Positions 2,305 through 11,880 of a stretch of 64,000 nucleotides of DNA are shown here, one piece after another. Location: contig NZ_ADVZ01000004.1 of assembly GCF_000178995.1 (NCBI RefSeq), positions 1-64,000 on the forward strand. The letters are read 5' to 3'. Both the position numbers and the translations under genes were made by a program. The stretch is from Afipia sp. 1NLS2 (GTDB lineage Bacteria; Pseudomonadota; Alphaproteobacteria; Rhizobiales; Xanthobacteraceae). The notes under the pieces are model-generated. The model did no database searches, was not told where the DNA came from, and was given only the letters and a program-made list of their open reading frames with translations. Within the stretch, counting starts at the first letter, position 1; each line of letters begins with the position of its first letter.

Positions 2305-2547
2305 ATGAACGAGCCTCTTATCGCCGATGTCGAATGGGATGCGGGCGATCTGGGCTGCGGCCCGCTGCTGCTCGAATTGCGCAATCGGTTGCGCACCATG
2401 CCAGGGCAGGTGTTCAAGCTGATCTCCGTCGATCCAGGCTCGCCGGAGGATCTGCCGGTCTGGTGCCGGCTCAGTCGCAACGAACTGCTGCATCACGATC
2501 CGAAAACAAAGAGCTACTGGATTCGCTCGCGTCTCGACTGGGAGTGA
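2305..2547 (+). CDS. TusA-like sulfur-carrier family protein, variant motif
   Basis: An 80-residue protein with the TusA/SirA/YeeD pattern: a GDLGCG start where TusA has its CPxP motif, then a helix with LRNRL, a strand, DPGSPEDLP and a closing VWCRLSRNELL that matches the second half of TusA. TusA proteins carry a persulfide on the Cys of CPxP. Here that Cys (in GCGPLL) is kept but both prolines are out of place. A second Cys lies in WCR. The first domain of the fusion protein at 7814 is its close relative, so the two probably act in one pathway. A DsrE-like gene follows after 68 bases; TusA and DsrE proteins are known partners in sulfur relays. Its sulfur-carrier role is inferred. Confidence 0.7.
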   Translation: MNEPLIADVEWDAGDLGCGPLLLELRNRLRTMPGQVFKLISVDPGSPEDLPVWCRLSRNELLHHDPKTKSYWIRSRLDWE

Positions 2548-2615
2548 CGCGGCGCCCGAGAGAAACCTGATTCCCGATTCGAAAAGTTCACACGCCGATC
2601 TAAAAGGAGATTCAA

Positions 2616-2978
2616 ATGGCCGGAAATTTCGTCGTCAGCCTGACCCACGCCAAGAACGATACCGACAAGGCGACCGTCGCTTTCGTCATCGCCAATGCGG
2701 CGATCGCGTCCGAGAAGAAGGTCGTGGTGTTCCTATCGATCGAGGGCACGCGGCTGTCACAGAAGGGCTATGCCGACGACATCCACGAAGAGGGCTTCGC
2801 GCCTTTGAAGGATTTGATGAAGAGCTTTGCCGAAGCAGGCGGCCAGATGTTCGTCTGCTCGCCCTGCTTCAAGAAGCGCGGGCTCGACGAGAACAATCTG
2901 GTGCCGGGTGCGGTGATCGTCGGCGGCGCGAAGCTCGTCGAATTCCTCGGCGATGGCTGCCCCAGCGTCAGCTACTGA
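2616..2978 (+). CDS. DsrE family protein
   Basis: A 120-residue cytoplasmic protein resembling DsrE/YchN-like peroxiredoxin-fold proteins. The N-terminal half has the alternating strands of the fold (FVVSLTHAKND; VVVFLSIEGTRL). The second half contains a Cys in VCSPCFKKRGL, followed by VPGAVIVGGAKLVEFL. The Cys-Phe-Lys-Lys-Arg segment is the likely sulfur-carrying site. A good Shine-Dalgarno sequence (AAAGGAG) precedes ATG 2616. The stop overlaps the start of the next gene by 26 bases, which indicates translational coupling if that ATG is used. DsrE proteins transfer sulfur to or from TusA partners in oxidation or thiolation pathways; the acceptor here is unknown. Confidence 0.75.
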   Translation: MAGNFVVSLTHAKNDTDKATVAFVIANAAIASEKKVVVFLSIEGTRLSQKGYADDIHEEGFAPLKDLMKSFAEAGGQMFVCSPCFKKRGLDENNLVPGAVIVGGAKLVEFLGDGCPSVSY

Positions 2979-3582
2979 CAAATTCCGCGAGCGTTTGCGT
3001 GGTGTGAACGCTCGCGCATGGTCCATTCAAGGGATGGCATTGATGTTTCGTTATCGGTGGCTGCTTGCTTTATTTGTGGTGGTGACGCTGGGTTACATGG
3101 CACTGAGCTTTGCCATGTTCCAGATGCCGGACACGATGGCGGACGCCGAGAATTGTGGCTTCCTGCCCGGTGAATTCGTTGCCGCAGGTCAACTCACGTA
3201 CGAGCGTTCACAGGCGTGGTTGATCAGCTTTCAGCGCAAGGACGAAATCTGGATCGCGGTGTCGGTCGGAATGGCGGCAACCTTTATCGGATTTGCCCTG
3301 TCGATCGGGCGACGCGTCGGCGGCGGCGTTGCCACCGGCGCCGCGATGGGCGGCGGCGTGCTGGCGCTGTCGGCCATATGCGTGAGTTGTCTTGCGCCGG
3401 TGCTGTCGGTGGTCGGGCTCGGTCTCGCCGGCTCGCTGTTCGCCGGCCTGCCGAAATGGTTGATCGCACTCAACACCCTGATGTTGACGGGGTGGGGCGC
3501 ACTCTATCTGTCGCGGCGAGGCAGTTCATGCCCGGTGCCGCGCTCCAAAACCTCGATCTCGTCAAATCCGAAAGCCGTCTGA
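2953..3582 (+). CDS. Small multi-spanning membrane protein with paired Cys
   Basis: Up to 209 residues with about four membrane segments: one near residue 40 (WLLALFVVVTLGYMALSF), one near 100 (WIAVSVGMAATFIGFALSI), one near 140 and one near 165. Two cysteines flank VS inside the third segment (ICVSCLAPV), and another lies in an outer loop (ENCGFLPGEF). I do not recognise the family. Membrane-embedded cysteine pairs occur in thiol or sulfur transporters and in DsbD-like carriers, which would fit the TusA/DsrE neighbours, but that is inference. ATG 2953 overlaps the DsrE gene; ATG 3034 or 3043, with AAGGG just upstream, is a plausible alternative start that skips a polar N-terminus. Confidence 0.6.
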   Translation: MAAPASATDKFRERLRGVNARAWSIQGMALMFRYRWLLALFVVVTLGYMALSFAMFQMPDTMADAENCGFLPGEFVAAGQLTYERSQAWLISFQRKDEIWIAVSVGMAATFIGFALSIGRRVGGGVATGAAMGGGVLALSAICVSCLAPVLSVVGLGLAGSLFAGLPKWLIALNTLMLTGWGALYLSRRGSSCPVPRSKTSISSNPKAV

Positions 3583-3593
3583 GGGAGGCCGTG

Positions 3594-5168
3594 ATGCTTG
3601 CCAGAACCTGTAAACTCGGAACGGCTCTTGCTGCCCTGCTGCTGTTGCCGCTGCCTGCCGCAATGGCAACCGACTATGCGACCGTGCTGCAGCCCGCAAA
3701 GCCAGGGTTGCCGCTCGCGCATCCCATCGCCAAGACTGACATCGCGCCGCCGCCATTCTCGGAGATCGCCGACCGGCCGGTGAAGCCCGCTTATGTGCCG
3801 GGCCTGCCGGGGTTGCCGCAAGGCGTCGCGGTGAAGGATGATTTCGGCGTGCCGCGGCCGCCGAAATATGACGGCGTGGTGATCCGCAAGAGCCGCGTCG
3901 AGAACGGTGAAGTGGTGATTCCGCCGGGTGGCTTGTTCTATCTGGAAGATACCTGGGGAGGCGAGGTGGCGTTGCGCGGCGAACCGATGCCGGTGCTCGG
4001 TCGGATGCCGACTTATGTCGATTACGACATGAGCATCGTCGTGAAGGAGAACGTCACGATTCCAGCGGGCAAGAGCGTCGTGGTCGGTGGTACGGTTTAT
4101 CAGTATTACGCAACTGTCGGGCACGAGAAGCTCGCCAACCATGCGCTGCATGTGAAGACCATCGCGGGCACCGATTGGGAATGGGCGTTCGGCTCTCCGG
4201 TGTTGTCGCAGACAGAGCCGTCCTGGTGGGGCACGCGCTTCACCCAACTCTACAATCAGGGGCAGGCCCGCGAAGTCACACCGCAGAAGATGGTGTTTGA
4301 CTGGATTTCCGGCGTTCGGATGGACCGCCTGCTGCTGGCCGATGAGAAGGTGTTCTCCGGTCTTGCCAGCGCGGGCGATCAATGGACATCGGGCGCGCGC
4401 ACCATTCGTCTCGCCGAAGTGAATGCCGAGGCCGGCACGGCACGCATCGAAGTGATCGAGGACGGCAAGGTCGTTCTCAATCGCACGCTCGGTCCGGTGA
4501 AAAACGAATTGCTGATCGAAGATCACGACGCCCGCAAGGCGCTGGTGTTCGAGCACGGTGATGTCGCCGGATTTCTGTCGCCATGGCCGGAGCCGTTCAA
4601 GGACGGCAAGGCCAACCTGAAAATCTACGGCAAGACCTTCAGTCTCAATTACGGGCAGGACTACGCGCCCGACGCGCGCTTCGCCGTTTATCCGGTCGGC
4701 TGCCCGACCGGACACAATTTCGGGTTCATGCTGGTCAACAAGGAAGAGATCCGGCTGAAGCCGGGGGCGGCGTTCAGCGGGCCGGAAGGCTACTTCAAAG
4801 TCGCGGTCGACCGCATCGACGGCGACAAGGTCACCGCCTGGCATGTAGAGGACAAGAAGGGCAACCGCTCGGTCAATCTCGGCGGCGCGGATGTCGCCAA
4901 TGTCGATCTCGTCCTCGGTCAGGGCCGCGTGACAGGACAAGCCATCCTCAAGGATGTCGGTCGTGCCATGCTGGCGCGGACTTATCAGTCGATCGTCGAG
5001 GCGAGCGGACAGACGGTGGCCGCGAATACTGGCGCCAAGCCGGCGACGCATGAAGCTGCACAGTCCGCAGTGGTGGCCGGGCTTTCGCCGGGCATGCTCG
5101 CCGGTTTCGGAATCCTGCTGTTGGGCTGCATCGGCGTCGGTTACGAAATCGGCCGCCGCCGCGCATGA
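3594..5168 (+). CDS. Unknown exported protein with C-terminal membrane anchor
   Basis: A 524-residue protein that I do not recognise. It begins with a clear signal peptide (Leu/Ala-rich core ending AAMA, residues 1-22), then a proline-rich stretch, and a long beta-rich body with repeated strand-turn patterns to about residue 470. One membrane segment near the end (GMLAGFGILLLGCIGVGYEIG) precedes an Arg-rich tail, so the body should face the periplasm. The body contains one notable Cys (PVGCPTGHNFGF). A strong Shine-Dalgarno sequence (GAGGGAGG) sits just before ATG 3594, 11 bases after the preceding gene. Its place between a DsrE/membrane pair and a PhnD-type binding protein suggests a periplasmic part of the same system. 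Confidence 0.6.
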   Translation: MLARTCKLGTALAALLLLPLPAAMATDYATVLQPAKPGLPLAHPIAKTDIAPPPFSEIADRPVKPAYVPGLPGLPQGVAVKDDFGVPRPPKYDGVVIRKSRVENGEVVIPPGGLFYLEDTWGGEVALRGEPMPVLGRMPTYVDYDMSIVVKENVTIPAGKSVVVGGTVYQYYATVGHEKLANHALHVKTIAGTDWEWAFGSPVLSQTEPSWWGTRFTQLYNQGQAREVTPQKMVFDWISGVRMDRLLLADEKVFSGLASAGDQWTSGARTIRLAEVNAEAGTARIEVIEDGKVVLNRTLGPVKNELLIEDHDARKALVFEHGDVAGFLSPWPEPFKDGKANLKIYGKTFSLNYGQDYAPDARFAVYPVGCPTGHNFGFMLVNKEEIRLKPGAAFSGPEGYFKVAVDRIDGDKVTAWHVEDKKGNRSVNLGGADVANVDLVLGQGRVTGQAILKDVGRAMLARTYQSIVEASGQTVAANTGAKPATHEAAQSAVVAGLSPGMLAGFGILLLGCIGVGYEIGRRRA

Positions 5169-5211
5169 TTCAAAGTTCAACGTCAAGCATTCAACATGGG
5201 GAAACGACATT

Positions 5212-6096
5212 ATGGATATGAATAAAGGGCGAAGGAATTTCATCGTCACGACGGCGGGCCTTGCGGCGACGACGCTATTCACGCCGGCGATCGCGCAGGG
5301 CAAGAAGAAGCTGCATTTCGGTGTCGGCCCGCTGCTGCCAAATGCTGACGACACCAGGAAAGCCTACACGCCGGTGTTCGCGCATCTGGCGAAAGAGCTC
5401 GGCGTCGATTTCGATCTCGTCGCGACGACCGATTGGGCAGGCATGGCAGTGGCGATGGGCTCCAACCAACTCGATGTCGCGTGGATGGGACCGTGGGGCT
5501 ACATCATCGCCAATGCCCAGACGGGCTGTCAGGCGGTTGCGACCGTGAAGTACGACGACAAGCCGGTCTATTATGCGATTATCATCGCGCGGCCCGATCT
5601 GCAGGTTTCGAAATTCCCGGACGATACCAAGGGCAAATCGATTTCCTTCGCCGATGTGGGCTCCACCTCGGGCTGGCTGATCCCGAGCTACTACGCCAAG
5701 GAGGTCTGGAAGATCGACCCAAAAACCTACTGGAAATACACCGATGGTGCGACCCATGGCGCGAACGAGATCGCGGTGAGTTCGGGTCAGGTCGATATGG
5801 CGACTGACTTCGACCGCAACCGCAACGCGATGATCGCCAGCGGCAAGATCAAAGAAGGCGCCAACAAGATCATCTGGACCTCCGACCCGCTGCCGAACGA
5901 TGCGATTGCGTTGCCAGCCAATGCGCCGAAGGAGCTTGGTGCTCAGGTACAAAAGATCCTGGCCGCGATCACGGTCGAGCAGGCCAAGACGCTGCTGCCG
6001 CCGCGTTACACCGGGTTCGTCCCTGCCGACCACGCCTCCTACGCGATGATCGAAAAGGCAGGTATCGCGGTCGGCAAGATCAAGCCGAAGGCATGA
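5212..6096 (+). CDS. PhnD-type ABC substrate-binding protein
   Basis: A 294-residue periplasmic binding protein of the phosphate/phosphite/phosphonate (PhnD) family. The N-terminus KGRRNFIVTTAGLAA looks like a Tat-type signal and ends near AIAQ. The mature part starts with a strand and GVGPLLPN, followed by AMGSNQLDVAWMGPWGYIIA, the hallmark of PhnD proteins. Later come GKSISFADVGSTSGWLIPSYY and QVDMATDFDRN. Members of this family bind phosphonates, phosphite or other small anions; the ligand here is not predictable. It is followed by the matching permease and ATPase, and lies inside the TusA/DsrE/MetE-fusion block, which argues for a ligand connected with sulfur or methyl chemistry. ATG 5218 is an alternative start. 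Confidence 0.8.
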   Translation: MDMNKGRRNFIVTTAGLAATTLFTPAIAQGKKKLHFGVGPLLPNADDTRKAYTPVFAHLAKELGVDFDLVATTDWAGMAVAMGSNQLDVAWMGPWGYIIANAQTGCQAVATVKYDDKPVYYAIIIARPDLQVSKFPDDTKGKSISFADVGSTSGWLIPSYYAKEVWKIDPKTYWKYTDGATHGANEIAVSSGQVDMATDFDRNRNAMIASGKIKEGANKIIWTSDPLPNDAIALPANAPKELGAQVQKILAAITVEQAKTLLPPRYTGFVPADHASYAMIEKAGIAVGKIKPKA

Positions 6097-6160
6097 GCAC
6101 GATGCTGATGGCGGGCTGCGGCAGTGCCGCGGCTCGTCACGGTTGCGACCTGAGACGACG

Positions 6161-6976
6161 ATGATGAGTAGAGCCGAGCGCGCACTCGCCGATCTTGAAG
6201 TGATGCAACGCGGCTCGACGGGAACGCGCGTGCGGTTTTGGGTGATGGTCGCGATCGTCGCGGGCTTCTACGCAGTGTCGTGGAATCTCGCTGGGGTCGA
6301 TCTCGCGAAGCTCTCGACCGGACTGCCACGGCTTGGCCATTGGATCATGACGGCGTGGCCGCCGAAATTCGACGAACTGCCGCTGTTCGCGCTGCGCACG
6401 GCAGAAACCGTCGCGATGGCCGCCATCGGCACCACGGTGGCGACCATTCTCGCAATTCCGATGTCGATTCTTGCCAGCCGCAACATCACACCGTGGCCGC
6501 GCCTGTATTATCCGGCACGCTGGTTTCTGAACGCGTTGCGCGGCATCGACTCCTTTGTGTTTGCATTGTTATTCGTCGCAGCGGTGGGGTTGGGTCCATT
6601 TGCAGGCGTACTTGGCATCGCGTTGCACACCTGGGGCAGCGCCGCCAAATTCTTTGCCGACCATATCGAGAATGTGAATCTCGGGCCGTTGGAAGCGGTG
6701 CGCACGACAGGTGCTGGGCGTTTCACGGCCATCGCTTATGCGCTGGTGCCGGATGTGTTGCCGGTGATGCTGTCGACGACATTGTTCTGGTGGGAGTTCA
6801 ACGTCCGCGCTTCGACAGTGCTGGGCGTGGTCGGAGCGGGCGGCATCGGGCAGGAACTGAAGAACAGCATGGACCTGCTCGATTTCCCGCGCCTGTTCAC
6901 GATCATTGCCGTCATCCTCGTTGTCGTCACCGCGCTGGATCAGTTGTCCGGCTGGTTGCGCAAGCGACTGGTGTGA
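6161..6976 (+). CDS. PhnE-type ABC transporter permease
   Basis: A 271-residue inner-membrane permease of the PhnE family with about six membrane segments. The cytoplasmic coupling loop is visible as EAVRTTGAGRFTAIAYALVP, matching the EAA motif region. The end has FPRLFTIIAVILVVVTALDQLSGWLR, typical of PhnE. ATG 6161 is preferred over an in-frame TTG at 6143. The next gene begins two bases after its stop, so translation is coupled. It should pair with the binding protein at 5212 and the ATPase at 6979 to form a complete importer. Confidence 0.85.
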   Translation: MMSRAERALADLEVMQRGSTGTRVRFWVMVAIVAGFYAVSWNLAGVDLAKLSTGLPRLGHWIMTAWPPKFDELPLFALRTAETVAMAAIGTTVATILAIPMSILASRNITPWPRLYYPARWFLNALRGIDSFVFALLFVAAVGLGPFAGVLGIALHTWGSAAKFFADHIENVNLGPLEAVRTTGAGRFTAIAYALVPDVLPVMLSTTLFWWEFNVRASTVLGVVGAGGIGQELKNSMDLLDFPRLFTIIAVILVVVTALDQLSGWLRKRLV

Positions 6977-6978
6977 CT

Positions 6979-7803
6979 ATGGCGGAAACAATGCAAGTCA
7001 TGAACATGCCGATCGCATCGACCATACTGGAACGCCATCATGGTGCTTGCCGGATGCGGGTGGATGGTCTCAGCAAGGCGTTCGACGGGTATGCGGCCAT
7101 CGAGGATGTCAGTTTTGACGTGCATGACGGCGAGTTCGTCGCGGTGCTAGGTCCGAGCGGCGCCGGGAAGACGACGCTGTTTCGTTGCATGGCCGGCCTG
7201 CTTGCGTCTGATGACGGCAGTGTGTGGATCGACAATGACGACATCGCCGCGATGCGCGATCGCTCGCGCCGCCGGCTTGCGGTGGTGTTTCAGCAATTCA
7301 ATCTGGTGAACCGGCTGACCGCACTCGAGAATGTTCTCGCCGGCCGGCTCGGTTACGTTCCGGCCTGGCGCGGCTGGTTGCGGCGCTTCACCCGCGCCGA
7401 CCGGCTATTGGCGATGGAATGTCTCGACCGTGTCGGTCTACTCGCGCAGGCCGGGCAGCGCGCGGACACGTTGTCGGGCGGCCAGCAGCAGCGCGTTGCG
7501 GTCGCGCGGGCACTGGCGCAGCAGCCGAGCCTGATTGTCGCCGACGAGCCGGTCGCGAGCCTTGATCCGAACGCCAGCGCCGGTGTGTTGGAACTGCTGC
7601 GCGGCATCGCGCGCACGGACGGCGTCGGCGTAATATGCAGCCTGCATCAGGTGCATTTCGCGCGCGTCTATGCCGACCGCATCATCGGCCTGTCGCACGG
7701 CCGCATCCTCATCGACGTGCCGAGTGCGAAATTCGATCAGGCGGCGTACGAAACTTTGTATGGTTCCCAGAACCCGGCCTCCGCCGATCCAACATCCGTG
7801 TGA
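6979..7803 (+). CDS. PhnC-type ABC transporter ATPase
   Basis: A 274-residue ATPase. Walker A is GPSGAGKTT (residues 58-66), the Q-loop is VVFQQFNLVNRL, the signature is LSGGQQQRVAVARAL, Walker B is LIVADEPVASLD, and the switch histidine lies in CSLHQVHFAR. Length and spacing match PhnC. The N-terminus has an extra stretch of about 25 residues before the first strand. No phn genes for C-P lyase or phosphonatase lie nearby, so calling the system a phosphonate importer on homology alone would be unsafe. It ends 10 bases before the TusA-MetE fusion gene. Confidence 0.85.
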   Translation: MAETMQVMNMPIASTILERHHGACRMRVDGLSKAFDGYAAIEDVSFDVHDGEFVAVLGPSGAGKTTLFRCMAGLLASDDGSVWIDNDDIAAMRDRSRRRLAVVFQQFNLVNRLTALENVLAGRLGYVPAWRGWLRRFTRADRLLAMECLDRVGLLAQAGQRADTLSGGQQQRVAVARALAQQPSLIVADEPVASLDPNASAGVLELLRGIARTDGVGVICSLHQVHFARVYADRIIGLSHGRILIDVPSAKFDQAAYETLYGSQNPASADPTSV

Positions 7804-7813
7804 GACAATCATC

Positions 7814-9334
7814 ATGACCGACGCCGCGACTCCGCAAGTCCATCCTTTTCCTTCCGACGTCAGCTTCGACGGCGGCGATCTGGATTGCGGCAACGGACTT
7901 TTGCTGCTGATCCGCAAACACATCGATCCGATGGCGAAGGGCCAGCTTCTGGAAATTCTCTCCACCGAGATTTCGGTCGATGAGGATCTGCCCGCATGGT
8001 GCCGGTTGACCTCGAACGATCTGGTGTCGTTCACCAAGACCGGCAAGCAGCGCAGCTTTCTGATCTGCAAGGGCAAGTTCGACGAGCGTGGCAAGGCCGA
8101 TGAAAAGCCGGCGGCGAAGGTGTCCGCGCCATTTGCGCAAGCTGCATCCGCCGCTGCGCCGGTGCGCAGACCTGCACCCGTGATTCCGCCGCTCGCGGTG
8201 ACGGGCATCGGAAGCTGGCCGCGCCCGCGCTGGATGGTCGATGCGATGCACGCCTATGTCGAAGGCCGGCTCGAGGAGGCGGCCTTCCATCAGACCGCCG
8301 ATGACGCTGTGCGTCTTGCGGCGGCGGCGCAGGAACGCGCGGGCGTGGATATCGTCACCGATGGAGAGCAGCGCCGCGACAGCTACGCCAGCTTTGTCGC
8401 CACCCGGCTCGACAATTGCCAGTTGATTCCGCTGACCGATCTCCTGCCGTTGGTCGATGACCCGGAGGAATTCGAGCGCGAACTGCGTGCGCTCGATGTA
8501 CCGGCAGCGGATGTTCGCCATCCGGCCATTTTCGGCCGCATCAGCCGCAGCCGCCCGCTTGCGCTGCATGAATTCGATTTTCTTTCCACCATCACCGATA
8601 AGCCGATCAAGGTGGCGCTGCCGGGACCATATCTCCTGACGCGGACGATGTGGATGGAGTGCCTGCAAGAGCGCGCCTATCAATCGCGCGAGGAGCTTGC
8701 GGAAGATATCGTCACGGCGCTGCGTGCGGAGTTGGCCGATCTCATGGCGGCGGGCGTTGCACTGGTGCAGTTCGATGAGCCTGTTTTGTCGGAGGTAGTG
8801 TTCAGTGGCCCGAAGAGCCGGCCGAGCTTCATGTGCGGTGCGCTGTCGGAGACGCGCAGTCCTGAGCACGAGCTGGGCTTCGCCCGCGATCTGATGAACG
8901 CCGTCGTCGATGGCGTGCCGCGTGCGCGCACGGCGGTTCATGTTTGCCGTGGCAACTGGACGCCGGATGAATCGGTGGCATTGGCCGGAAGCTATGAGCC
9001 GCTTCTCGATACGCTCGGCGCGATGAAGGTCGGCGCATATCTTCTGGAGATGTGTACGCCGCGCGCGGGTGAGATGGAGCTGTTGCGTGCGCTGCCTGCG
9101 GAGGCCCGCATCGGCGTCGGTGTCGTCAATCAGAAATGCGCCCATGTCGAAGGCTGTGAGGATGTGGAGGCGCGGATCAGGCACGCGATCGATCTGTTTG
9201 GCGCGGACCGTGTCTTGTTGCATCCCGATTGCGGCTTCGCGACCTTCGCCGACAATCCGATCTGCGCCGCGGTCCCTGCCGAGACCAAGCTCGCGCGGAT
9301 CGTGGAGGCCGCAAGGCGCGTGCGCGGCGGGTAA
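7814..9334 (+). CDS. TusA-like domain fused to MetE-type methyltransferase domain
   Basis: A 506-residue two-domain protein. Residues 1-90 resemble TusA (GGDLDCGNGLLLL in place of CPxP; then DEDLPAWCRLTSNDLV). An Ala/Pro-rich linker (about 95-130) leads to a MetE C-terminal-type barrel that starts at VTGIGSWPRPRWM. The MetE zinc ligands are present: His376 and Cys378 in VHVCRGNW, Glu412 in LLEMCTP, and Cys473 in LHPDCGF. The folate/substrate region VQFDEPVLSE is also present. The MetE N-terminal domain that helps hold polyglutamyl folate is absent, as in archaeal-type and MetE-like methyltransferases. The expected chemistry is methyl transfer to or from a zinc-bound thiol; the fused carrier suggests the acceptor may be a protein-bound thiol or persulfide. 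The fusion is unusual. Confidence 0.8.
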   Translation: MTDAATPQVHPFPSDVSFDGGDLDCGNGLLLLIRKHIDPMAKGQLLEILSTEISVDEDLPAWCRLTSNDLVSFTKTGKQRSFLICKGKFDERGKADEKPAAKVSAPFAQAASAAAPVRRPAPVIPPLAVTGIGSWPRPRWMVDAMHAYVEGRLEEAAFHQTADDAVRLAAAAQERAGVDIVTDGEQRRDSYASFVATRLDNCQLIPLTDLLPLVDDPEEFERELRALDVPAADVRHPAIFGRISRSRPLALHEFDFLSTITDKPIKVALPGPYLLTRTMWMECLQERAYQSREELAEDIVTALRAELADLMAAGVALVQFDEPVLSEVVFSGPKSRPSFMCGALSETRSPEHELGFARDLMNAVVDGVPRARTAVHVCRGNWTPDESVALAGSYEPLLDTLGAMKVGAYLLEMCTPRAGEMELLRALPAEARIGVGVVNQKCAHVEGCEDVEARIRHAIDLFGADRVLLHPDCGFATFADNPICAAVPAETKLARIVEAARRVRGG

Positions 9335-9602: not shown

Positions 9603-9950
9603 ATGCAAGTGACTTTGATGAAAGGCAAGATTCACCGCGCGCGGGTCACCGAAGCCGACTTGCATTATGAAGGATCGATTTCGATTGATCGCAATCTTAT
9701 CGATGCCGCGGGTTTTGTCATCAACGAGAAGGTCGATATTTTCAATATCGACACCGGCGCCAGATTTTCGACCTACGTCATTGAGGCTCCGGCCGGCTCG
9801 GGCACCATCGGTCTTAACGGAGCTGCTGCGCGTCTGGCGATGACCGGAGACAAGGTCATCATCGTTGCCTATGCCAGCTTCGATAACGACGAGGCTCGCG
9901 GATTTAAGCCCTCGGTCGTCCTCGTCGACGAACAGAACCGGCGAATTTAA
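9603..9950 (+). CDS. panD: Aspartate 1-decarboxylase
   Basis: A 115-residue pyruvoyl enzyme that converts aspartate to beta-alanine for pantothenate and CoA synthesis. The self-cleavage site Gly24-Ser25 is present in YEGSISID at the expected position; Ser25 becomes the pyruvoyl group. Family motifs [39 protein letters not shown] and [10 protein letters not shown] are all present and the length is normal. A good Shine-Dalgarno sequence (TTAGGAGA) precedes ATG 9603. The 268-base region upstream holds a 12-base palindrome CGCTATATAGCG (9507-9518) but no recognisable regulatory element. It is convergent with the EamA gene. Confidence 0.95.
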
Positions 9951-11247: not shown

Positions 11248-11652
11248 TCAACCGAAAGCGATGATGAGCCAGGCGAGTCCGACAGACAGGAGTGCCGTAA
11301 ACAAGGCCAGGAAAGGAAGCAGGAAACTGAGCGGCAGATCGGCCTCTTGGCGCATGGCACGTTCCGCGCGCGCCCATCGCGTGTAGGCGACACCTCCGAG
11401 CATCCCGCCGACCAGCAGCAGGATGATGGAGAGAATAAGCCTCAACTGTGCGGAGCCGAGATGGGACGCGAACTGATCGATACCGATCGCGCCGGCGACG
11501 ATGGCGAGGGATGTCCTGATCCAGGCGAGGAAGGTGCGCTCATTGGCGAGCGAAAAACGGTAGTCCGGGCGTGTCCCGGTCTCCCACCATTTCAGGCCTT
11601 TCTTTTTGCTCGACTCGACCGGAGTCTCAAAAGCACGAGAATGCAAATTCAT
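11248..11652 (-). CDS. YidH-like DUF202 membrane protein
   Basis: A 134-residue inner-membrane protein with a polar N-terminus (about 30 residues), the conserved LANERTFLAWIRTSLAIVAG motif that defines DUF202, and three membrane segments. It is the first gene of a two-gene unit with the shorter DUF202 gene at 10913. The family has no established biochemical role. An inverted repeat (11715-11740) lies about 60 bases upstream of the start and may be its operator. Confidence 0.8.
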   Translation of the reverse strand: MNLHSRAFETPVESSKKKGLKWWETGTRPDYRFSLANERTFLAWIRTSLAIVAGAIGIDQFASHLGSAQLRLILSIILLLVGGMLGGVAYTRWARAERAMRQEADLPLSFLLPFLALFTALLSVGLAWLIIAFG

Positions 11653-11714
11653 TTCAGTACCTTACGGGCTGCAATGGATTGCTGCAGCAGCTTGCTTGTC
11701 GCAGTCGTCCATAA

Positions 11715-11740
11715 TTGTTTCATAAAATGGAATGAAACAA
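11715..11740. promoter_or_regulatory. Inverted repeat upstream of the DUF202 pair
   Basis: TTGTTTCAT and ATGAAACAA form perfect 9-base arms around an 8-base centre, in an AT-rich region upstream of the DUF202 genes. The size and symmetry suit a dimeric repressor. It could also fold as a hairpin, but no T-run follows. Confidence 0.4.
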
Positions 11741-11880
11741 GCCAAAGAACGAACCACAGAGGTACATATCACTATGGCCGCATTGTGGGGAGAAATATTC
11801 TCTCAAATATATCTACGGCTTGTTACTGAGCCTCCCGATTGCGAGAGGGCAGCATATTCGGCCTCCGGCCAAATAAGGCC

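Follow-up and report, generated by a model that had tools for sequence, protein, structure and literature searches.

What would a bacterium do with a TusA-like and a DsrE-like carrier, a PhnD/PhnE/PhnC-type importer and a MetE-type methyltransferase domain fused to a second TusA domain, all encoded side by side? The question is raised by the stretch of Afipia sp. 1NLS2 DNA analysed here (the window: bases 1-64000 of contig 7 of a 3.97 Mb genome), which carries eight plus-strand genes at positions 2305-9334: tusA, dsrE, memC, EXP, phnD, phnE, phnC and tusA::metE. The original prediction had taken them for a coherent, undescribed system joining a small-anion importer, carriers and a zinc methyltransferase, with a methylated or sulfur-containing anion as its substrate. 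The set and its conservation were borne out by our analysis, but co-occurrence with SelD, SelA and SelU, together with a selA gene adjoining the cluster in Paracoccus, makes selenium, and not sulfur or phosphorus, the most likely element. The cluster is a real, widespread and selenium-linked system, apparently undescribed, and the best overall explanation, to which we give a probability of roughly 0.7, is that it is a selenium-supply module feeding SelD.

Results

The cluster accompanies selenium use

On plasmid pFER4 of Paracoccus ferrooxidans the gene order is tusA, dsrE, memC, EXP, tusA::metE, selA and trxB, with a divergent cysteine desulfurase gene immediately before the cluster and selB lying some 8 kb from tusA on its upstream side. 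Plasmid pBEN of Paracoccus versutus matches this layout in tblastn, and on both of these plasmids, the two examined of the three that matched, tRNA-SeC and selB lie on the same 37-kb stretch as the cluster. Within about 18-22 kb (pFER4, L062 5318-27680; pBEN, L061 4119-21919) each brings together selA, selB, tRNA-SeC, trxB and the cluster, and this megaplasmid region is possibly a transferable selenium island.

The selA gene adjoining the cluster in Paracoccus prompted a test of co-occurrence with SelD. A scan for the fusion protein encoded by tusA::metE, made with six peptide patterns on one genome per species and picking up close relatives only, yielded 44 loci from Alpha- and Betaproteobacteria, Binatota, Chloroflexota, Corynebacterium, Planctomycetota and a few other groups. 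The window genome, 43 locus genomes (that of L018 being left out) and two further carriers from a sample of the class made up 46 carriers. SelD, scored as TIGR00476 above its cut-off, was present in 43 of the 44 window and locus genomes and in 45 of the 46 carriers when both class carriers were added, against a background of 83 out of 385 class-sample genomes (21.6%, three carriers included). These three class-sample carriers, detected at E ≤ 1e-60 (the window's own genome, G348 and G351), were all SelD-positive (Fisher test, 0.0097). Comparing 45/46 with 21.6% gives a value of 4e-29 under the assumption that carriers are independent, which they are not. A rough group-level test, its groups assigned by us from record titles, came to 15 of 15 and is given no weight. 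The single SelD-negative carrier, G038, has SelA and SelU, and its SelD may thus be missing from an incomplete assembly.

SelA exceeded its cut-off in 38 of the 46 carriers and SelU was found in 17. Five of the eight carriers below the SelA cut-off have SelU (G043-G046 and G049), indicating that the link is with selenium and not only with selenocysteine (Sec); of the other three, G035 combines SelD with a short fragment of SelA, and G037 and G061 have SelD alone. At least one selenium-use gene (SelD, SelA or SelU) was therefore found in all 46. In the window's own genus, where the fusion occurs in 6 out of 29 genomes, SelA was over the cut-off in five of the six carriers (the sixth has a fragment) versus 4 of the 23 non-carriers, with Fisher values of 0.0055 when scored strictly and 0.0004 when the fragment is counted. 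Judging by identical SelA coordinates, G010, G014 and G016 look like G030, G029 and G035, and since genomes are shared in this way between the genus and locus sets, the genus test compares sister genomes and does not add new carriers.

Within its genus the cluster has a patchy distribution, and in Paracoccus it lies on plasmids. Its spread across unrelated phyla, including Corynebacterium, for which the C. glutamicum control had no SelD over the cut-off, argues against a single-lineage effect. The window genome has two selD/selB/selA/tRNA-SeC sets (L073, G000:C10:284000-301000; L074, G000:C10:1280000-1296000), the second selD and selA sharing 68% and 58% identity with those of the first set, and in the Corynebacterium riegelii carrier selD, selA, selB and tRNA-SeC are found together (L075, G065:C1:1575000-1592000). 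We consider it very probable that the cluster is a selenium module, in the sense that it goes with selenium use. Its carriers and its membrane CxxC protein could also serve to remove excess selenium, a detoxification or export role to which we give a slim chance, because ATP-binding cassette (ABC) systems having a binding protein are importers and the link with SelD and SelA points to selenium being used.

Gene content and arrangement

The prediction of seven consecutive same-strand genes was right about the strand, but the genes number eight. The first, tusA (2305-2547), encodes a free TusA-like carrier of 80 aa that scored 30.2 bits against a cut-off of 28.6 (Pfam TusA, E 4e-7), and dsrE (2616-2978) a DsrE-family carrier of 120 aa with a CSPC motif (Pfam DsrE, E 2.8e-17). 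They are followed by memC (3043-3582), for a helical membrane protein, and EXP (3594-5168), for a beta-rich protein of 524 aa that, by reading of its signal and anchor, would be exported and C-terminally anchored. The importer comprises the binding protein PhnD (5212-6096; Pfam Phosphonate-bd, E 2.6e-48), the permease PhnE (6161-6976, with an alternative TTG start at 6143; BPD_transp_1, E 3.9e-13) and the ATPase PhnC (6979-7803; ABC_tran, E 5.8e-34). The last gene, tusA::metE (7814-9334), encodes a fusion of 506 aa that joins a TusA-like N-terminal domain (Pfam TusA, 8.3e-7) and a core MetE C-terminal domain (Meth_synt_2, 4.2e-32) in a single protein. Six of the eight proteins passed Pfam cut-offs, and the families originally named (TusA, DsrE, the PhnD/PhnE/PhnC importer and the TusA-MetE fusion) were thus confirmed.

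The predicted gaps of 11 bases between memC and EXP, 2 between phnE and phnC and 10 between phnC and tusA::metE were found as described; further gaps measure 68 bases (tusA/dsrE), 43 (EXP/phnD) and, if phnE starts at 6161, 64 (phnD/phnE). A 26-base overlap of dsrE and memC, also described, depends on an ATG at 2953 and did not hold up. In homologues the protein starts with MFRYRW (ATG at 3043) or close to it, and in locus L006 the memC frame has a stop codon immediately upstream of that start, so that a start at 3043, leaving a 64-base gap after dsrE, is likelier than one at 2953. Judged from the sequence, transcription of the eight genes as one unit is plausible. The cluster is flanked by a gene at 304-1404 whose protein has no Pfam match at 0.0001 and by an aspartate decarboxylase gene at 9603-9950, and an Rfam scan of the window gave no match at gathering scores.

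A fixed core with interchangeable modules

The gene order is kept far beyond close strains, in line with the original prediction: the core recurs in several phyla, and this recurrence is far above chance. In a protein search 6323 of the 7998 sequences scored were relatives of the fusion at E ≤ 0.001, a number that will include ordinary MetE-type proteins; the best 120 of the 6323 share at least 71% identity. By tblastn, dsrE accompanies the fusion in 39 of the 44 loci and was not seen in L005, L027, L038, L044 and L048, the last three of which are cut by a contig end within the cluster or near it. The pair of dsrE and tusA::metE is the least variable part of the cluster. A separate tusA usually goes with it but was undetected in seven Binatota-type loci (L029-L034 and L037, with L030 counted among them for its grouping on the fusion tree despite a different title).

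Upstream of the fusion, 18 of the 44 loci have importer genes, seven have EXP (memC was seen in six of these, the other, L048, being cut) and 19 have neither, a label that is uncertain for L038 and L044, which begin inside the fusion. The importer, predicted as part of the cluster, is so in the window but is not obligate. No locus among the 44 has importer and memC-EXP together, but the window has both, and in G002 and G003, of the same genus, the spacing between tusA and the fusion equals the window's 5.5 kb, which suggests that they too hold both. When mapped onto a maximum-likelihood tree built from 45 fusion proteins, the memC-EXP label requires at least six changes and the importer label eight (at least six of them forced by well-supported branches), and the memC-EXP label clustered no better than shuffled labels, 142 out of 500 shuffles being as low. 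Around a fixed core, the importer genes and memC-EXP have repeatedly replaced one another as alternative modules, as expected for two ways of doing one job.

Among other neighbours, a second DsrE-like gene lies near the cluster, in most cases downstream, in 13 betaproteobacterial loci (checked by Pfam in L016 only, 11499-11858), and genes that read as TctC-like and acetyltransferase-like recur in eight and six loci, respectively. In the Corynebacterium loci L041, L042, L045 and L046 the cluster seems, from the sizes of open reading frames, to adjoin ribosomal protein genes. In other core-only loci the flanking genes read as unrelated, and only the methionine genes of the seven Binatota-type loci stood out: beside dsrE-tusA::metE, a divergent set reads as O-acetylhomoserine sulfhydrylase (MetY), homoserine acetyltransferase (MetX), MetW and methylthioadenosine (MTA) phosphorylase, and Pfam assigned two of the neighbours in L032 to a Cys/Met pyridoxal phosphate enzyme and an alpha/beta hydrolase. 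These neighbours, and the sulfur chemistry of the TusA, DsrE and MetE families, favour assimilation of organosulfur or methyl-sulfur compounds, whereby a sulfur anion would be imported and its sulfur or methyl group moved via TusA, DsrE and MetE. Neither SelD in 45 of 46 carriers nor selA adjoining the cluster is predicted by this role, which we regard as improbable.

Carriers and the TusA-MetE fusion

The zinc ligands H376, C378, E412 and C473 of the fusion, as well as E185 and D321, were invariant in all 45 aligned rows, and S134 was kept in at least 90% of them; residue roles were assigned by alignment to solved MetE, from part of the text of PMC7857596 and from general knowledge. With its zinc ligands and homocysteine residues in place, the fusion retains the features of a core MetE. 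In its TusA domain C25-G26 (at least 90% of rows) replaces the start of the CPxP motif, and a second cysteine, C63, lies in a WCR motif. The same CG motif takes the place of CPxP in at least 90% of 27 aligned rows of the free TusA. In DsrE, C81 and C84 were invariant in 40 out of 40 rows, and the cysteine position fits what we take to be the sulfur-carrying cysteine of TusD. A search for Sec codons replacing conserved cysteines found no alignment crossing such a stop in dsrE, tusA::metE, memC, EXP or tusA among the loci collected, a weak test given that local alignments may end at stops; the only stop met was the one upstream of the memC start.

Source annotations often name the fusion a methionine synthase. 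A folate-independent enzyme of this kind, in which TusA would carry methyl groups or sulfur, would account for the kept zinc and homocysteine residues, the absence of the folate N-terminal half and the Binatota-type neighbours, and in three of 43 carriers (G061, G063 and G064) we detected neither MetH nor a full MetE. The remaining 40, however, have MetH (PF02965, 37 carriers) or a strong full-length MetE (three more), and the window genome has one MetE-sized and one MetH-sized gene. The fusion is hence not a general methionine synthase, and general replacement of that enzyme was rejected for most carriers. The link with selenium would also go unexplained, and we give this alternative little credence.

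MemC and EXP

C38, C113, C116 and C163 of MemC were invariant in 52 aligned rows, C113 and C116 forming a CxxC within a hydrophobic stretch. The best Pfam match was TMEM208, below cut-off at E 0.13, and there was neither an NCBIfam match at 0.01 nor a fold match; the predicted model is poor near the CxxC, with residues 111-128 under a predicted local distance difference test (pLDDT) score of 50. The source record of one relative calls it vitamin K epoxide reductase, a label that was not confirmed. These features would fit thiol-based passage of electrons or selenium. EXP matched no Pfam family and no NCBIfam family at 0.01, and was dropped as a known enzyme since no family matched; it gave a weak match to an S-layer-type (DUF1608) fold and has invariant H177, H183, H186, C370 and H374 (33 rows). 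In P0009 (708 aa, [Pseudomonas] carboxydohydrogena) and P0010 (705 aa) memC and EXP are fused, which supports joint action of the two proteins.

The importer

Both PhnE (268.8 bits, cut-off 216.7, TIGR01097) and PhnC (287.3 bits, cut-off 266.1, TIGR02315) passed the phosphonate equivalogs. PhnD stayed below the corresponding TIGR03431 (168.4 vs 261.1 bits), as well as below TIGR04553, putative selenate binding protein (81.5 vs 250 bits). Its closest solved relative is HtxB, to which it aligns at 2.9e-76. W52, T129, S130, R178 and D206 are as in HtxB, but N128 is replaced by Ser and F158 by His as in PtxB, so that the HtxB set of five (W52, N128, F158, R178 and D206) is incomplete; this mixed pattern was seen without exception in the 17 rows aligned, from the window and 16 loci. 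In PtxB, a third oxygen of the ligand is contacted by these Ser and His residues (PMC5700983, part of the text). By analogy, the PhnD pocket may accept a small three-oxygen anion, although it keeps the Trp of HtxB. In shape, selenite resembles phosphite, and it would be the candidate ligand, with methylseleninate as an alternative.

The likeness to HtxB and the equivalog scores of PhnE and PhnC would also suit uptake of phosphite, hypophosphite or phosphonate as a phosphorus source. Against this, PhnD falls short of the phosphonate cut-off, the importer and memC-EXP interchange repeatedly, and the core occurs without an importer. Nor was any C-P cleaving or phosphite-oxidising gene recognised among the neighbours viewed, a survey in which ten proteins, not all of them next to an importer, were checked by Pfam rather than all by a full domain scan. 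We regard a phosphorus role as highly improbable.

Discussion

We propose that selenium would be taken up by the HtxB-like PhnDEC importer in the form of selenite or methylseleninate, and that other strains would use a MemC-EXP thiol membrane system for its entry. DsrE and the CG-type TusA would hold it on cysteine as S-Se, preventing its loss or mixing with sulfur. The MetE domain, with its zinc and homocysteine-type site, would strip the methyl group from methyl-selenium carried on its own TusA domain, the methyl-selenium being imported or made in the cell from S-adenosylmethionine (SAM) and selenide; demethylation would yield methionine and a perselenide that would pass to SelD. The original idea of an imported methylated anion whose methyl is moved could then possibly hold, with the methyl sitting on selenium. 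Transport of a selenium oxyanion by the importer seems to us an even bet, action of the MetE domain on methyl-selenium is offered more tentatively, and a TusA-S-Se-CH3 form appears quite doubtful. A bolder reading, in which aerobic bacteria acquire selenium with an oxyanion importer (PhnDEC or MemC-EXP), a cobalamin-free zinc/homocysteine demethylase and a TusA/DsrE relay to SelD, is possible but rather unlikely as a whole.

Several points weigh against a selenium-supply module. The carriers are not independent (7 Binatota-type, 5 Duganella and 4 Corynebacterium among the 46), the genus test shares genomes with them, and no completeness was stated for the 43 locus genomes. Eighty of the 83 SelD-positive class-sample genomes lack the cluster, and no sel gene was found in the flanking sequence retrieved for the 44 loci, Paracoccus providing the only physical link. 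The methionine-biosynthesis-like genes adjoining the seven Binatota-type loci fit methionine chemistry too, and our data do not separate selenite from sulfite, phosphite or thiosulfate as the PhnD ligand. Finally, gene order, conservation, motifs and co-occurrence with selenium genes were observed, and from these we infer each chemical step.

Two reviews, from 2022 and 2026 (PMC9312934 and PMC13188914, parts of the texts), state that a specific high-affinity system for selenium transport has yet to be identified in prokaryotes, and in our view the way in which selenium is kept apart from sulfur en route to SelD is an open question. The cluster offers named importer, carrier and methyltransferase genes tied to SelD across several phyla. 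A selenium role would also correct the annotation of the fusion as methionine synthase and that of the importer parts, by NCBI models, as phosphonate transporter. Our literature search found no description of this gene set; subscription journals were mostly outside its coverage, leaving absence unproven.

The known systems nearest to the cluster each share a part of it. YedE/YedF (TIGR04112, TIGR03527) resembles it in combining TusA and DsrE with a selenium link: YedF has TusA-like and DsrE-like domains in one protein and is tied to SelD (PMC5322559, part of the text), and the words MetE and phosphonate are absent from the text of that paper. In the cluster, by contrast, TusA and DsrE are encoded by separate genes, CG stands in place of CPxP and no YedF model matched at E ≤ 0.01. 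PhnD shares its fold family and most pocket residues with HtxB and PtxB but mixes the two pockets and has different partner genes; in pocket residues only, it resembles the structurally unstudied 'hybrid' group described in PMC5700983. TIGR04553 likewise models a binding protein of the PhnD type and takes its name from a selenium anion, although PhnD is below its cut-off. The core methionine synthases MesA-MesD (PMC7857596, in part) have, like the fusion, a MetE catalytic domain without the folate half and with the zinc and homocysteine residues; the fusion differs in its N-terminal TusA, a word absent from the main text of that paper, and in that 40 of 43 carriers also have MetH or a full MetE.

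A functional parallel would be the corrinoid methyltransferase clusters. Type 1 mlp clusters occur with Sec genes in 87% of species and have been proposed to salvage methyl-selenide, including that derived from SAM (preprint PMC10418091, part of the text). In M. maripaludis, depletion of selenium raises the transcript levels of tusAD and of the methyl-selenide methyltransferase operon, and mutants in five transporters revealed no dedicated selenium importer (PMC11097638, part of the text). SdmABC and the type 1 mlp clusters share with our cluster a zinc methyltransferase tied to Sec users and a proposed release of selenium from methyl-selenide (PMC10418091 and PMC11097638, parts of the texts), but they use a UroD-family methyltransferase and a corrinoid protein, whereas in the cluster a sulfur carrier is joined to a domain of the MetE family, and Pfam found no corrinoid or UroD domain among its eight proteins. 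By this analogy it would be a cobalamin-free counterpart of the type 1 mlp clusters; in kind it would be a system of selenium trafficking and methyl-selenium salvage, hidden behind ordinary family names.

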